A stretch of 64,000 nucleotides of DNA. Source: Clostridia bacterium. GTDB lineage: Bacteria; Bacillota; Clostridia; Christensenellales; Aristaeellaceae. Shown piece by piece: positions 2,856 through 62,121 of the stretch. The stretch lies in NCBI GenBank assembly GCA_017428385.1, contig JAFRQX010000010.1, positions 170,591 to 234,590 on the forward strand, in the 5' to 3' direction. The notes beneath the pieces were generated by a model. It had not been told where the DNA came from. It ran no database searches and worked only from the letters and a program-made list of their open reading frames with translations. Numbering within the stretch: the stretch's first letter is position 1; each line of letters begins with the position of its first letter. Position numbers and translations under genes: made by a program.

Positions 2856-4858
2856 AGGCGCCCTATGCGCCCTCCGGAGACCAGCCCCAGGCCATAGAGG
2901 CGCTGGCGGCAGGAATCCAGGCGGGACTGAAGGATCAGATCCTTCTGGGTGTCACGGGCAGCGGCAAGACCTTCACCATGGCTTCGGTGATTGAAAAAGT
3001 ACAGAAGCCCACCCTGGTCATTGCCCATAACAAGACGCTGGCGGCACAGCTCTGCAGTGAGCTGAAGGCTTTCTTCCCGGACAGCCGGGTGGAATACTTC
3101 GTCAGCTATTATGATTACTATCAGCCGGAAGCGTACATCGCTTCCTCGGATACCTATATCGAAAAAGATGCCTCCATCAATGATGAGATTGACCGCCTGC
3201 GCCACTCGGCCACGGCGGCGCTTCGTGAGCGTAAAGACGTGATCATCGTCGCGTCCGTCAGCTGCATCTATTCCATGGGCGACCCCAGCGAGTACGAGGG
3301 ACAGATGATCTCCCTGCGGCCGGGCATGGAATACAGCCGCACAAAGCTGATCCGGGACCTGATCGACATCCAGTATGAACGCAATGACGTGGAGTTTGAC
3401 CGGGGAACCTTCCGGGTCCGGGGCGACACGATCGAGATCATCCCCGCGGGTGAAAACCAGAAGGCCATCCGGGTGGAACTTTTCGGGGACGAAATTGAGC
3501 GGATCTCCGTTATTGAGGCGGTGAGCGGCCATGCCCTGGCCACCCTGGAGCACGCGGCCCTTTTCCCGGCGACGCACTATGCCACAGACCCTGCCCACAT
3601 GGAGGAGCACATCGGGGATATTGAAAAGGACCTGAAGCAGCGCATTGAGGAGTTTGAATCCCAGGGTAAGCTGCTGGAGGCCCAGCGTATTGCCCAGCGT
3701 ACCCGCTACGATATCGAGATGATGCGGGAGATCGGATACTGCCAGGGCATTGAAAACTATTCCCGGTATTTTGACGGCCGGAAGCCCGGGGACGCACCCT
3801 ATACGCTGCTGGATTACTTTACCGGGGACTTCCTGGTGATGATTGACGAAAGCCATGTGACTGTGCCCCAGATCCGTGCCATGTACAACGGAGACCGGGC
3901 AAGGAAAAATACGCTGGTGGAATACGGATTCCGCCTGCCTTCCGCCTATGACAACCGGCCGCTGCTGTTCAACGAGTTTGAGGAGCGCATCGGCCAGACT
4001 ATCTTTGTATCCGCCACCCCCGGCCCTTATGAGCGGGAGCGGGCACAGCAGGTGGTGGAACAGATCATCCGGCCCACGGGCCTGCTGGATCCGGAGGTGA
4101 TCCTGCGGCCGGCTACCGGCCAGGTGGACGATCTGGTAGGCGAGATCCGGAAGGTGACGGAGAAAGGCGAGCGTGTGCTGGTCACCACACTGACCAAGCG
4201 CATGGCGGAGAGCCTCACCGAGTATCTCAAGGAACTTGATATCAAGGTGAGGTACCTGCACAGCGATATCCAGACCATGGAGCGGATGGAGCTGCTGCGG
4301 GATCTGCGCCTGGGCGAGTATGACGTGCTGGTGGGTATCAACCTGCTGCGGGAAGGCCTGGACCTGCCGGAGGTCGCGCTGGTCGCGATCCTGGACGCGG
4401 ATAAGGAAGGCTTCCTGCGGAGCGAAACCTCCCTGGTGCAGACCATCGGCCGGGCGGCTCGTAACGTGGACGGCCGGGTCATCCTGTACGGCGACCAGCT
4501 GACGGAGAGCATGGCCAAGGCCATGTCGGAAACCAACCGTCGCCGCGCCATCCAGGAGGAATACAACAAGGCCAACGGCATTACACCGGAGAGCGTGCGC
4601 AACGCGATTCGCAGCGTGCTGGAAATCACACGCCGGGTGGAGGAAACCGCTCCCGCGGCGTTGAATGAAGATGAACGTGCTGCCCTGATGCGGAAGATTG
4701 AGGATGAGATGCTCACCGCGGCGAAGGAGCTGGAATTCGAGCGCGCCGCGCAGCTGCGTGACAGGCTGCTCGAGCTCCGGGGTGAAGCGCCCATGAAGGA
4801 CGATAACCAGAGCCGGCGGCACAGACGAAGGGAGAGAACAAGAAAGAGTGAACACTGA
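2837..4858 (+). CDS. uvrB: excinuclease ABC subunit B
   Basis: A 673-residue UvrB, the damage-verification helicase of nucleotide excision repair, which works with UvrA and UvrC. The Walker A motif GVTGSGKT is at about residues 38-45. The beta-hairpin region ([10 protein letters not shown]), the helicase motifs and the C-terminal UVR coiled coil that contacts UvrC ([12 protein letters not shown]) are all present. Length is normal. Its start lies inside rnz, and its last codons overlap a small downstream membrane ORF. uvrA and uvrC are not in this window. Confidence 0.97.
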
Positions 4859-58697: not shown

Positions 58698-58846
58698 GTA
58701 AAAATCGAGCGGCACCGGAAACCGGTGCCGCTCTTTGTGGGGGAAGGGGATAGGGAAAAAGGGAAATGTATGAAGAAACATCCTGCCGAATTCCGCCGGC
58801 AGTATTGGGATAGGCTGGATCAGGGCCGGCCGTTGTCCCTGTTGAC
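58698..58846 (-). ncRNA. csRNA-like small RNA, copy 1
   Basis: A predicted minus-strand RNA of about 148 nt. From the 5' end: CAGGG..AACGGCCG..CCCTG hairpin, variable stem CTGCCGG/CCGGCAG-like, the conserved core GATGTTTCTTCATAC, the C/U-rich stretch UUCCCUUUUUCCCUAUCCCC, then terminator stem GAGCGGCACCGG / CCGGTGCCGCTC and TTTTT. The core is the complement of AUGAAGAAAC and the C/U tract the complement of an SD. No target for this copy found in the window. Confidence 0.72.
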
Positions 58847-58852
58847 AAGCAC

Positions 58853-58886
58853 AGTATATCCCGAGAACCTTAAGTGAAGCTTAAAG
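58853..58886 (-). promoter_or_regulatory. CiaR-box-like direct repeat and -10 of sRNA copy 1
   Basis: On the minus strand TTTAAG-CTTCA-CTTAAG (58885-58869), 10 nt, then TATACT (58858-58853). The 11-bp period and the absence of a -35 fit an OmpR/PhoB-type activator; sequence and spacing match the streptococcal CiaR box NTTAAG-N5-WTTAAG except for one base. Confidence 0.75.
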
Positions 58887-58936
58887 GTAAAAAGAAAAAC
58901 AAAAAGGGTCCTGGAAAAAACGGGAAACAGCAAACT

Positions 58937-59230
58937 TTAATGCGGTCCGGAGGTGCAGTAGGTGCGGATATCCACGGTGTAATCTGAAACCACCCAGCTT
59001 TTACTGCAGTAATCGCAGGTATCCGTTCCGGTTATCTTCCAGAACTCATGGATATGGGTATGCGGCCCATGATTATACTGACAGAACCCGCAGTAAACCG
59101 GAGCGTCCTTTTTTTGCCAATGTTCCCTGTAGGTACACTTCTTATGAGTACAGGCCAGCGCAGCAAAACATACTGATACAGCAGACAGTGCCAAGCCCGC
59201 AGCAAGGATAAACGCCAGCAGCTTTTTCAT
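58937..59230 (-). CDS. secreted Cys/His-rich microprotein 1
   Basis: A 97-residue exported protein with a signal peptide (MKKLLAFILAAGLALS.., cleaved near CFAAL). The mature part of about 72 residues has CTHKKC, CGFC, several His (HGPHTHIHEF) and CDYC, a likely zinc-ribbon-like fold. It is paralogous to the next three genes. Its SD-to-ATG region (AGGAGAATAA, 4 nt, ATG) matches, in register, the complement of the small RNA at 60622-60755. Confidence 0.8.
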   Translation of the reverse strand: MKKLLAFILAAGLALSAVSVCFAALACTHKKCTYREHWQKKDAPVYCGFCQYNHGPHTHIHEFWKITGTDTCDYCSKSWVVSDYTVDIRTYCTSGPH

Positions 59231-59342
59231 GGTATTATTCTCCTGTCAATGAAGAATTGGAATGATCCGCACCAGGCGAATCATTCCATAAAAACATTAT
59301 GAATTTGCTGTTGAGATGCTTCTTGTAAACAAATGGGGTGGT

Positions 59343-59693
59343 TTAGTTCATATAGGTTGTCTGTTCGTGGATCTTTTCACCGCAGACACCGCAAAGGTCA
59401 TATTCATAGAGCAGGTGCGGGGTGAGCCACTGAGTACGATGCTTCAGGTTGCAGTGATTCTGATAGGTTGTGGTGGTTTCCCAGTAGAGCGAATGGCAGC
59501 TTGAGCAGTAGATCTGCTTGGAGGTGACGATTTTGTGCTGACTGCTGCCTGCACTAGTAATGGTTTTCTGCGTATCAACGACTCCTGCGGAGTATTTTCC
59601 GCAGCGGCTGCAACGCATGTTTCCTGCAAAACACAGGCTGGCGACAGAAAGAACCAGGACCAGGACGAGACACAATGCGATAACCTTTTTCAT
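59343..59693 (-). CDS. secreted Cys-rich microprotein 2
   Basis: A 116-residue exported protein: signal peptide MKKVIALCLVLVLVLSVASL, then three CxxC pairs (CSRC, CSSC, CGVC), which could make a treble-clef or two zinc sites. AAGGAGG precedes the ATG. A hairpin GGAATGAT/ATCATTCC at 59259-59287 lies downstream. No family recognised. Confidence 0.8.
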   Translation of the reverse strand: MKKVIALCLVLVLVLSVASLCFAGNMRCSRCGKYSAGVVDTQKTITSAGSSQHKIVTSKQIYCSSCHSLYWETTTTYQNHCNLKHRTQWLTPHLLYEYDLCGVCGEKIHEQTTYMN

Positions 59694-59800
59694 GATACGA
59701 TCCTCCTTTTTTTTATCAGAACGATCCGTTGCAGACGGACCGTTTCTTACCGGGAAAGCAGACAGCAGTCAGAAAGCTGACAGTAGACAATCAGCTATTC

Positions 59801-60082
59801 TTAACGAGCGCACGGGCAGGTCACACTGAGGGTAACTGTTTTTGTCGTGGTATAGCTTTCGTGACAGTTCGGGCATGCATACACCGTGATGATATCCTTA
59901 CAGCTCTTAGTGTGCGCATGCCAGTTGGTGTTGTTCGCACACATTGTCCAGATGGGCGTGGTGTAATACTTCGTGGTCTGATAAACCATTGTGAAATAAT
60001 GGTTTGCGCACGCAGCCAAAGCCGTTACCGCAATGGAGCAGATCAGAACCAGAGCACAGATGAGAGCCACAGACTTTTTCAT
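59801..60082 (-). CDS. secreted Cys/His-rich microprotein 3
   Basis: A 93-residue exported protein: signal peptide MKKSVALICALVLICSIAVT ending near ALAAC. The mature chain has ACANHYF, CANN..WHAHTKSC, then YACPNCHESYT and a terminal CPC. It aligns over its whole length with microprotein 4 (AC-x-H, CPxC, YT, CPC). AAGGAGGGG precedes the ATG. Confidence 0.82.
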   Translation of the reverse strand: MKKSVALICALVLICSIAVTALAACANHYFTMVYQTTKYYTTPIWTMCANNTNWHAHTKSCKDIITVYACPNCHESYTTTKTVTLSVTCPCAR

Positions 60083-60171
60083 GGAATACCCCTCCTTAAA
60101 ATATAAATGATTTAACCCGGTTTGCAGGAAACCGGAAAAGAGACAACAATCAGAAAACAGTCAGCAAATAA

Positions 60172-60456
60172 TCAGGGCTGGCAAGGGCAGCTCTGGTTGA
60201 TAAACGTCTTGACGATCTTGGTATAAGTGTCACCGCACTTCGGGCAGTAGTACACATACACCTTATCTTCATAGTTCAGAAAATGAGGGTGGACATACTG
60301 GTTATACTCACAAGTCGTCATGCAGTAGGGAACGGAAGAAGTACCGGCAACGGTCTCGTGAACCAGGATATACGAATGAGTGCATGCAGCCAGGGCGACT
60401 GCCGCGATGGAACAAACCAGAACAGCTGCCAGAAGGAAAGCCAGGAACCTTTTCAT
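60172..60456 (-). CDS. secreted Cys/His-rich microprotein 4
   Basis: A 94-residue exported protein: signal peptide MKRFLAFLLAAVLVCSIAAV ending ALAAC, then THSY, CMTTC, VHPHF, YYCPKCGDTYT and a terminal CPC. It is a paralogue of microprotein 3. The ATG at 60456 follows GGGAGGG; the open frame extends 45 codons upstream without an SD. Confidence 0.82.
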   Translation of the reverse strand: MKRFLAFLLAAVLVCSIAAVALAACTHSYILVHETVAGTSSVPYCMTTCEYNQYVHPHFLNYEDKVYVYYCPKCGDTYTKIVKTFINQSCPCQP

Positions 60457-60621
60457 TAACAGACCCTCCCAATGAATTATTAAGTTATTGCCGACAACGC
60501 ACAGAGCATACACAAAAAAACACATCAAAACTACCCAACCTGCACAACTGGTCGGTTTATCTGCATCATTGGAAGAGAATTGATCAAACAAAATGAAAAA
60601 TTGCTCATTCTTTGTGATGGC

Positions 60622-60755
60622 ATAAAGAAAAGACAGCGTCGCAGCGCTGTCTGAAAGAGGAGAATAAGAGTATGAAGAAACATCCTCTGCCGGGGCCCTG
60701 GACCGGCAGGAAGATGGTATTCACTAGATCAGGGTCGGCCGTTTCCCCTGTGAAC
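60622..60755 (-). ncRNA. csRNA-like small RNA, copy 2
   Basis: A predicted minus-strand RNA of about 133 nt with the same plan as copy 1: CAGGG..AACGGCCG..CCCTG hairpin, variable CTGCCGGTCC..GGCAG stem, GATGTTTCTTCATAC, the C/U-rich CTCTTATTCTCCTCTTTC, terminator AGACAGCG / CGCTGTCT and TTTTCTTT. The unpaired part is complementary to AGGAGAATAA-4 nt-ATG, as found before microprotein 1. Confidence 0.74.
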
Positions 60756-60761
60756 AACTGT

Positions 60762-60794
60762 AATATAATGGGTGAACCTTAAATGAGTCTTAAC
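60762..60794 (-). promoter_or_regulatory. CiaR-box-like direct repeat and -10 of sRNA copy 2
   Basis: Minus strand GTTAAG-ACTCA-TTTAAG (60794-60778), 10 nt, TATATT (60767-60762). This fits NTTAAG-N5-WTTAAG without mismatch. Confidence 0.78.
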
Positions 60795-60816
60795 AAAACA
60801 ATACAAATTAAAAAAC

Positions 60817-60861
60817 GGGTTCAATTTGATCAAATCCCCCCAAAATGACCAAATTGAACCC
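60817..60861. repeat. 12-bp inverted repeat upstream of sRNA copy 2
   Basis: GGGTTCAATTTG (60817-60828) / CAAATTGAACCC (60850-60861). It includes the 13-mer TTCAATTTGATCA, found again at 62165-62177 upstream of sRNA copy 3. It may be a second regulatory site. Confidence 0.55.
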
Positions 60862-60871
60862 CTGAATGATG

Positions 60872-60947
60872 AAATTGAAAAGAGGCGGTGTCCCTGAACA
60901 CTGCCTCCCATACATAAGAAGGAGAGCATGAAGAAACTCCCTGCTTG
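60872..60947 (-). ncRNA. truncated csRNA-like small RNA (variant 4)
   Basis: About 75 nt on the minus strand: a -10 TATACT (60960-60955), then GCAGGGAG-TTTCTTCATGC, the C/U-rich CTCTCCTTCTT, and terminator GAGGCAGTGT / ACACCGCCTC with TTTTC. It shares the core TTTCTTCAT and the anti-SD stretch with the full copies but lacks the 5' hairpin and the TTAAG boxes. Its complement AAGGAGAGCAT also occurs at the SD of the gene at 21132. Confidence 0.5.
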
Positions 60948-61070
60948 CAGTTACAGTATAGACAAAAAATGATCATTTACTATCTATCCTGCATAAGTGG
61001 TCAGAAAAACTGCAAAACTGGTAAAAGCGGGAGTAAAAATACTCCAACGTGTTACAAGTATTGCTGCGGC

Positions 61071-61130
61071 GTAACAATGGTGTAAAATCCCGCCAAACCT
61101 GTTGTTTTCGACCTTTTCTCATGATATATT
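61071..61130 (+). promoter_or_regulatory. rhomboid promoter with inverted TTTACACC element
   Basis: GTAACAATGGTGTAAA (61071-61086) is the exact reverse complement of the element at 23648. Downstream TTGTTT (61102-61107), 17 nt, TATATT (61125-61130) form a promoter 40 bases before the rhomboid start. Confidence 0.6.
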
Positions 61131-61169
61131 GCAAACGGATCCGGACAATAAATACAACAGGAGACGAGT

Positions 61170-61883
61170 ATGGCTGGTTCAGTAATCATCACTTGTAAGA
61201 AATGCGGCATGCCGCTGAAGAAGGGTACCAAGGTTTGCTCCTACTGCAGGCAGGATACCGGTTATCTCATTAACCGTGCCCCAAAGGAAAAGAAGACAGG
61301 CATCCGGATCCTGGGACACACTATCCGGCTTCCCTGGGTCACCCTGATCCTGGTAATCCTGAATGCTGTTGCAGGCATCTACAAGCTGGCCGGAGGAGAA
61401 TCTGACGTACTCCGGAACTTCGGTATGTACCAGGGCGCCCTCCAGCACGGAGAGTATGGCCGGATCATCCTGAGCAGCTTCCTGCACCTGAGCTTCCCGC
61501 ACTTCATCAGTAACATGTATGCCTTGCTGACCTACGGCTTCGTATTCGAAAACCGCATCGGCAGATGGAAGTATCTGGCTGTCTATCTGGTTTCCATGAT
61601 CGGTTCCGCCCTGCTCATCAACTTTGTGGGCGGTAACAGCCTCCATGCCGGTGCCAGCGGCGCCATCTGGGGCCTGATGGCAGCCAACCTCATCTACTGC
61701 ATCTTTACCCGAAGGAAGTTTCTTTATATGCTCTATGCCCTCCACGCGGTTATCGGCAATGTCCTTTACACCTTCTCCTCCAATGTCAGCTGGCAGGGCC
61801 ACTTCGGCGGAGCCATCGCCGGAGTACTCATCGCCCTCCTGCTCTTTGCCAAGGAGAGGAAAGAGAGCAAACCAATATTCTGA
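61170..61883 (+). CDS. rhomboid family intramembrane serine protease with N-terminal zinc ribbon
   Basis: A 237-residue protein. Residues 9-27 hold a zinc ribbon (CKKCGMPLKKGTKVCSYC), followed by a linker and six transmembrane helices. The catalytic dyad is Ser163 in GASGAIWGL and His211 in GHFGGAIAG; the oxyanion region HFISNMYAL is also present. Rhomboids cleave transmembrane segments of substrates. The neighbourhood of exported proteins and csRNA-like genes suggests an envelope role. Confidence 0.93.
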   Translation: MAGSVIITCKKCGMPLKKGTKVCSYCRQDTGYLINRAPKEKKTGIRILGHTIRLPWVTLILVILNAVAGIYKLAGGESDVLRNFGMYQGALQHGEYGRIILSSFLHLSFPHFISNMYALLTYGFVFENRIGRWKYLAVYLVSMIGSALLINFVGGNSLHAGASGAIWGLMAANLIYCIFTRRKFLYMLYALHAVIGNVLYTFSSNVSWQGHFGGAIAGVLIALLLFAKERKESKPIF

Positions 61884-61917
61884 AATGAACACCCGACATC
61901 AAAACAACAGACACACC

Positions 61918-61944
61918 ATCCCGGCAAACAGCCGGGATTTTTTA
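61918..61944 (+). terminator. terminator after the rhomboid gene
   Basis: ATCCCGGC / GCCGGGAT hairpin followed by TTTTTT. Confidence 0.85.
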
Positions 61945-61946
61945 TG

Positions 61947-62082
61947 TAAAAAAAGTAGGCAGCGAAGCCGCTGCCTAAAGGGAAAAGGGGAAGGGGAAGT
62001 ATGAAGAAACATCACACCGGCGGAAACAAAACCGGAAGTGATGGAATCCGCTAGACCAGGGTCGGCCGTTTGCCCTGTTGAC
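61947..62082 (-). ncRNA. csRNA-like small RNA, copy 3
   Basis: A predicted minus-strand RNA of about 135 nt: CAGGG..AACGGCCG..CCCTG hairpin, a variable middle stem (ACTTCCGGTTTTG..CCGGTGTG), the core GATGTTTCTTCATAC, the C/U-rich UUCCCCUUCCCCUUUUCCC, then terminator AGGCAGCG-AAGC-CGCTGCCT with TTTTTTT. The C/U tract and core pair in register with the initiation region of the LRR gene at 56446. Confidence 0.76.
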
Positions 62083-62088
62083 GGGGAT

Positions 62089-62121
62089 AATATAACCCAG
62101 GTTTCTTAAATGTACCTTAAG
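62089..62121 (-). promoter_or_regulatory. CiaR-box-like direct repeat and -10 of sRNA copy 3
   Basis: Minus strand CTTAAG-GTACA-TTTAAG (62121-62105), 10 nt, TATATT (62094-62089). It matches NTTAAG-N5-WTTAAG without mismatch, and spacing is identical to copies 1 and 2. Confidence 0.78.

Follow-up and report, generated by a model that had tools for sequence, protein, structure and literature searches.

Can a promoter box and a set of sibling small RNAs of the kind described for the streptococcal CiaRH/csRNA system operate in a clostridium? The question is raised by a 64,000-nucleotide (nt) contig stretch (the window) of a 3.32-Mb clostridial genome (G000), in which an earlier note had singled out three minus-strand units, U1 to U3, as csRNA-like genes with CiaR-type boxes. 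Every sequence element named for these units is present as placed: the box, the 10-nt spacing, the -10 sequence, the 5' hairpin, the variable stem, the core, the C/U tract, and a separate terminator for each unit. We propose that they probably belong to a family of small RNAs (sRNAs) that share a box, are likely activated by one regulator, and are predicted to act against messages for exported proteins. Under this model, U1 to U3 would be homologous predicted sRNA genes having their promoter box in common with an operon for an OmpR-type regulator and a kinase, and the regulator would switch the RNA genes on via the box. The C/U tract and the CAU-containing core of the RNAs would then pair with the Shine-Dalgarno (SD) sequence and the start codon, blocking translation of messages that start with AUG-AAG-AAA, most of which apparently encode exported proteins.

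A promoter box shared by three minus-strand units

The features of the three units, and of a fourth, shorter one (U4), are as follows, with the basis of each.

58698..58886, minus strand: predicted sRNA gene U1, promoter to terminator (sequence, pattern search, alignment)
58869..58885, minus strand: U1 box TTTAAG-CTTCA-CTTAAG (pattern search; the same kind of box precedes the regulator gene)
58853..58858, minus strand: U1 -10 sequence TATACT, 10 nt after the box (pattern search)
58821..58841, minus strand: U1 5' hairpin CAGGG/CCCTG with loop AACGGCCG (hairpin search, pair counts)
58768..58782, minus strand: U1 core GATGTTTCTTCATAC, predicted anti-start-site seed (alignment)
58700..58733, minus strand: U1 Rho-independent terminator (hairpin of -24.9 kcal/mol, T run)
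60622..60794, minus strand: predicted sRNA gene U2 (sequence, pattern search, alignment)
60778..60794, minus strand: U2 box GTTAAG-ACTCA-TTTAAG (pattern search)
60762..60767, minus strand: U2 -10 sequence TATATT (pattern search)
60730..60750, minus strand: U2 5' hairpin with loop AACGGCCG (hairpin search, pair counts)
60670..60684, minus strand: U2 core GATGTTTCTTCATAC (alignment)
60622..60652, minus strand: U2 terminator (scripted hairpin search)
60880..60960, minus strand: U4, short, with -10-like TATACT, seed GTTTCTTCAT, C/U tract and terminator-like hairpin, lacking box and 5' hairpin
61947..62121, minus strand: predicted sRNA gene U3 (sequence, pattern search, folding)
62105..62121, minus strand: U3 box CTTAAG-GTACA-TTTAAG (pattern search)
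62089..62094, minus strand: U3 -10 sequence TATATT (pattern search)
62057..62077, minus strand: U3 5' hairpin with loop AACGGCCG (hairpin search, pair counts)
61999..62013, minus strand: U3 core GATGTTTCTTCATAC (alignment)
61948..61977, minus strand: U3 terminator, GGCAGCGGCTTCGCTGCC followed by a T run (read from the sequence, folded)

A second, variable stem stands between the 5' hairpin and the core in each of U1 to U3. The core is invariant, being identical in the three units and in all nine copies of G000 and two related genomes, G022 and G035, while the hairpin CAGGGNNAACGGCCGRCCCTG has three exact occurrences and five further matches, every one of them with three mismatches. U4 is also kept in G022 and G035, and therefore may be a box-independent sibling RNA.

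The use of the box was surveyed in G000 and in a genus set of 45 genomes that includes it; counts of boxes, and of the start sites discussed below, are set against a reversed or control pattern in the same genomes. The strict pattern TTAAGN5YTTAAGN10TATANT has three sites in G000, which are those of U1 to U3, and its reversed form has none. The looser TTAAG-N6-TTAAG gives five matches; since one site matches on both strands, these mark four places, namely U1, U2, U3, and the promoter of the regulator-kinase operon on contig C11, and nowhere else; the full-genome search suggested in the earlier note thus added a single place outside the RNAs. The same four places are found in G035, and in G022 together with one exported-protein gene. 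In G001 the box stands at two places, before one RNA and one membrane-protein gene, which we read as encoding a membrane-fusion protein (a Pfam search with the first 120 residues of its relative in G010 returned only a weak, below-cut-off Biotin_lipoyl_2 match), and in G007 at three, before the regulator gene, a gene for an exported protein, and an RNA-like unit that lacks the 5' hairpin; in this survey of G022, G001 and G007, proteins were called exported from their N-termini by eye.

Over both strands, the box has 5, 6, 5, 3 and 3 matches in G000, G022, G035, G001 and G007, versus 8, 6, 11, 10 and 9 for the reversed pattern. Set against this control, the box shows no numerical enrichment in G000, but its placement is exclusive. 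Every box place in the five genomes is followed by a -10-like sequence and belongs to a gene of this set, and the box together with a -10 sequence has 18 sites over the 45 genomes versus 4 for the reversed pattern. On the counts of the strict pattern, of the looser one, and of the box with a -10 sequence, we rejected chance occurrence as the explanation of the boxes. The distance from box to -10 sequence is 9-10 nt in 25 of 26 hand-chosen promoters and 13 nt in the remaining one, a list in which four promoters came from patterns already demanding the spacing, and from which the U1-U3 copies of G022 and G035, five type-B copies (see below), the second copies in G015 and G068, the copy in G016, and the distant regulators are omitted.

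A reading of U1 and U3 as leaders of a downstream gene was rejected, as both run into convergent plus-strand genes; U2 does sit upstream of a minus-strand gene. Between U1 and U2 (58937-60455, minus strand) lie four clustered small cysteine-bearing, exported-looking proteins with MKK or MKR starts.

Relatives of the RNAs within the genus

A covariance model (R1) was built from U1 to U3 without their promoters, as the earlier note had recommended, and run on the 45 genomes, where it did find relatives. It matched three copies each in G000, G022 and G035, and diverged copies in G063, G001, G015 (two), G033 and G003. All these copies have a box-type repeat upstream, some with altered half-sites, such as CTTTAG-ATTCA-GTTAAG in G063, read by eye and missed by the scripted search. 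The E-values in G033 (3e-4) and G003 (0.007) are near those of rejected matches, and these two copies were accepted because of their box, -10 sequence, hairpins and terminator; six other R1 matches in four genomes (L027-L030, L036, L037) were discarded by eye. A second model (R2) added a type B in G000, G022, G035, G007, G001 and G004, with similar flanking sequence and boxes of the form NATAAG-N5-GATAAG or looser, as well as one copy in G016 and two in G068. Its 56 matches in the genus comprise 15 R1 copies and 41 others, 28 of which were inspected and found to be nine members, three broken or decayed copies kept outside the member count (L140 and L234 in G033, L238 in G012), and 16 non-members; the 13 matches with E-values of 0.02-0.07 lie outside the inspected set. 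By inspection, 12 of the 45 genomes hold clear members, the decayed-looking copy of G012 being excluded.

Outside the genus set, a sample of 200 genomes of the order (E 0.001, stricter filters of Infernal) returned only the own genome and a weak match in G057 (E 1.8e-4), at which no box was seen; L134, which lies in a different family of the order, was not accepted as a member. A scan of named genomes gave one match, to a Clostridia bacterium from sheep duodenum, in a set from which near relatives are possibly left out. We also rejected known Rfam families as the identity of the RNAs: the whole window has no match at gathering score, and ten loci searched to E 0.5 gave three sub-gathering matches, none over an RNA unit.

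Some type-B RNAs have two extra repeats in 11-bp phase upstream of the box, as if more regulator dimers bind there; at L141 the whole reads ATTCAT-N5-ATTCAC-N5-CATAAG-N5-GATAAG. A different observation concerns the exported-protein genes L013, L080 and L225 of different genomes, in which the box is followed by 5' leaders that resemble each other (ATGATATCGAGCRGCGRAAGCGTAAGACCGGATATC). Their inverted GATATC pair points to a structured leader, and Rfam searched to E 0.5 gave no match at these three loci.

The candidate regulator and known systems

The remaining box of G000 precedes the following gene.

G000:C11:4744-5415: OmpR-type response-regulator gene, with its box ending 46 nt upstream

The reading frame of this gene overlaps that of a histidine kinase by 4 nt. 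Pfam identifies Response_reg and Trans_reg_C in the regulator and HisKA and HATPase_c in the kinase, in which the Pfam search found no sensor domain. The CiaR-like regulator that the earlier note proposed to look for thus has a candidate, encoded on another contig behind the same box. Upstream of position 4744 (L094), several short direct repeats of the type AGAGTG(A/T) also follow one another.

The regulator has close orthologues in 8 of the 45 genomes, with 81-100% identity to the G007 query. A box, C[AT]TAAG-N5-CTTAAG or CTTAAG-N5-TTTAAG, precedes every one of them, ending 45-74 nt upstream of the matched gene start. All eight of these genomes have the RNA family, versus 4 of the 37 others (Fisher p 2.3e-6, kinship not corrected; 6e-6 by our own arithmetic when the decayed G012 copy is counted). 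This OmpR-type regulator is likely to drive the RNAs, and we would expect it to bind the boxes itself, rather than a paralogue doing so, and to act as an activator. Alternatively, another OmpR-type regulator, or several, could use the boxes, and the regulator operon would be merely another target. RNAs are indeed found in G033 and G016, where the best regulator match has no box, and looser boxes (7-8 of 10 half-site letters) stand before 6 of the 22 distant regulators scored, 46-49% identical, in G068, G014, G064, G003, G019 and G027 (L053, L055, L058, L062, L063 and L069), a count that has no shuffled control and includes a few truncated loci with uncertain starts. However, the four perfect boxes of G000 and G035 coincide exactly with the RNAs plus this operon, and no close orthologue has lost its box; we regard this alternative as quite improbable.

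The arrangement can be compared with that of streptococci. According to the published rule, csRNA genes have two intergenic TTTAAG half-sites (one mismatch in each, the G kept) 5 apart, followed after 10 nt by TATAAT (two mismatches) and within 250 by a terminator (PMC3091779), and U1, U2 and U3 all conform to it. The likeness thus includes an NTTAAG-N5-TTTAAG direct repeat 10 nt before the -10 sequence (PMC3091779, PMC8317062), and extends to several related intergenic RNAs with a terminator (csRNAs of 51-202 nt are predicted), RNA sequences complementary to SD and AUG, and possibly a regulator acting back on its own operon, to which the box before the regulator gene would correspond here. 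Streptococci are reported to lack Hfq, and none was found in six of six genomes of our set by a search whose control was positive in 5 of 14 known genomes.

Other features set the two apart. The recognition helix of the clostridial regulator, TVWVHISGLRKKL, is identical at 7 of 13 positions (ungapped, placed by eye) to that of CiaR, VVEVYVSKVRKKL, in which only V/I changes appear in Table 1 of PMC3091779; streptococcal CiaR proteins are described as at least 80% identical to each other over their full length. A nonamer, [A/C]UCCUAAA[A/C] or very similar, occurs in all but four csRNAs (PMC3091779) and was not found in U1 to U4, where the best match has two mismatches in U1 and three in U2, U3 and U4. 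The 5' hairpin with its AACGGCCG loop is not mentioned for csRNAs in the parts of PMC3091779 used here, the clostridial core reaches into codons 2-3 (AAG AAA), and the host is a clostridium. No CiaR-named protein was seen among 120 listed of 5949 proteins.

These differences bear on where the circuit came from. A true CiaR/csRNA system transferred from streptococci would account for the same box, spacing and anti-start-site logic. Against it stand the six differing positions of the recognition helix, the missing nonamer, the lack of an Rfam match at gathering score in the window, the presence of the RNAs in this genus only among the 45 genus and 200 order genomes, and statements that CiaRH is apparently absent from bacteria outside Streptococcus (PMC3091779 section 5, PMC8186281). 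We consider such a transfer very improbable. On the features tested, the helix and the nonamer, the units and the regulator are not csRNA/CiaR members by descent, and convergence is more likely because the helix agrees at only 7 of 13 positions, the nonamer is missing, and the RNAs are confined to one genus among the genomes searched. Of the two origins left open by the earlier note, transfer has thus lost ground, while the csRNA-like logic itself holds up in the published rule and in the box of the regulator operon. Most likely, then, the clostridial circuit would work like CiaRH/csRNA and have evolved independently; the literature passages retrieved in our searches describe no circuit of this kind for Clostridia, in line with what the earlier note had claimed.

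LhrC of Listeria, with LisRK, is a further parallel, by description only and not by sequence: it consists of multicopy RNAs under a two-component system, whose CU-rich sites pair with a surface-protein mRNA (PMC4132741). It differs in that no LisR consensus is known according to that article, that the responsive region lies upstream of -53, that LhrC came to light through its binding to Hfq, and that it has three redundant CU-rich motifs (PMC4132741).

RNA structure and predicted targets

Folding gave z-scores of -3.19 for U1, -1.65 for U2 and -4.27 for U3. Pair counts were made on a MAFFT alignment (A4) of 14 copies, with a structure written down from the alignment: 91.7% of cells are paired, versus 28-49% when the structure is slid, a level reached by 3 of 500 shuffles, and 3 of the 13 pairs show changes on both sides (reached by 14 of 500 shuffles). 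RNAalifold alone recovers seven of the 13 pairs, and its covariation term is small. By eye, the 5' stem reads CAGGG/CCCTG, GGGGG/CCCCC or GGGAG/CTCCC around the same loop, variants that carry a one-base shift the alignment misses. Taken together, the pair counts are moderate evidence for a conserved structure. A hairpin with a T-rich tail is present in 16 of 16 copies by a script run without shuffled control, whose best hairpin is not the first one for U3 of three genomes and for the G001 copy; these terminator-like hairpins differ in sequence from unit to unit.

The complement of U1 to U4 reads as an SD-like sequence followed by ATG, and the region is unpaired in the U3 fold. On the plus strand opposite each seed, an SD-like sequence precedes ATG AAG AAA CAT, and each unit has a purine-rich stretch followed by ATGAAGAAACATC and a frame of 17-36 codons. 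This could mean that small plus-strand genes with an SD sequence are the functional elements and the minus-strand signals incidental. But the frames (35, 36 and 17 codons, with that of G022 U2 frameshifted to 18 amino acids) are unlike between copies, substitutions fall at codon positions 1, 2 and 3 in numbers of 8, 11 and 12, without third-position preference (six comparisons of 115 nt, running past the stop in U3), and the promoters and terminators are on the minus strand. What the homologues keep is boxes (some altered), hairpins and terminators, and not the plus-strand frames, whose conservation the earlier note had named as evidence against its proposal. We rejected the small-gene reading, which is hardly credible; the plus strand would resemble a start site because it is the complement of an RNA directed against such sites.

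The core is antisense to AUG-AAG-AAA. An SD sequence with this start, GGAG-N3-11-ATGAAGAAAC, has 29 matches in G000 versus 1 for the control. Two of these matches are simply U2 and U4 read in antisense (the U2 complement, GGAG-N9-ATG, has natural start-site spacing), and 26 of the other 27 were fetched, 25 of which have a frame of at least 25 codons. A strongly hydrophobic, signal-peptide-like stretch follows MKK in 24 of these 25 genes, the exception (L200) having a weaker one, versus 56 of 262 sampled genes (Fisher 5.5e-14; genes of at least 100 codons, called by a simple script in ~344 kb, i.e., 14 stretches plus the window, and scored with the same crude measure). By eye, 11 of the 27 sites are letter-identical in G022 and G035. 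These counts fit RNAs that would be made and act in trans, mainly on messages for exported proteins. Pairing was compared with that of 20 mononucleotide-shuffled seeds at the start sites of the 56 exported-type and 206 other genes. U2 (-17.3 vs -15.2 in the exported set) and U4 (-16.9 vs -13.9) pair better than shuffled seeds in both sets, and the average pairing energies support the target idea weakly.

Several results weigh against the model of a regulator-driven RNA family acting on start sites. The reversed control outnumbers the boxes in raw counts in four of five genomes and equals them in the fifth, and the RNAs of G033 and G016 coexist with a best regulator match lacking the box. The z-score of U2 alone is not significant, a +1 slide of the structure also yields three pairs with changes on both sides, 298 of 500 shuffles reach the observed pair types, and 31 of 500 the covariation score. 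In the folds of U1 and U2, weak hairpins take up part of the seed. The enrichment in exported proteins arises in part because of their Met-Lys-Lys starts. In the exported set, U1 (-18.0 vs -18.8) and U3 (-16.8 vs -16.8) pair no better than shuffled seeds, and on the 206 other genes they do worse (-17.6 vs -19.0 and -15.9 vs -16.8); exported genes exceed the others only weakly (p 0.30, 0.14, 0.04 and 0.01 for U1 to U4). Finally, G001, G003, G015, G068 and the type-B copies have lost or altered the AUG-complementary core, and CGGCCG of the loop is better kept than this core.

This last pattern raises the possibility that the RNAs act mainly via the AACGGCCG loop, by protein binding or loop-loop kissing, with the C/U tract being secondary. 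CGGCCG is self-complementary, it is kept in type B, and no other part is conserved as well in distant copies as the loop, whereas not all of them retain the core. Yet the RNA-like units of G007 (L085), G016 and G068 have the C/U tract and terminator without the loop, those of G007 and G016 also keep the AUG-complementary core, and the nine closest copies agree in every letter of the 15-nt core. A mainly loop-based action seems unlikely to us.

More tentatively, the circuit might serve as a secretion brake, in which a seed antisense to SD-AUG-Lys-Lys, a frequent beginning among exported proteins, would allow one stress signal to lower the translation of much of the secretome, by an independently evolved CiaRH/csRNA-like logic. 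If the proposed circuit is real, it would clearly exemplify convergence in regulatory design, with a separate lineage having arrived at the same operator, spacing and sibling RNAs, and at the same anti-start-site logic despite a different recognition helix and no csRNA nonamer. It would also imply a general and testable rule, by which RNAs can recognise exported proteins from a Met-Lys-Lys start, and would provide a defined circuit for a clostridial genus that, in our own judgement, has been little studied.

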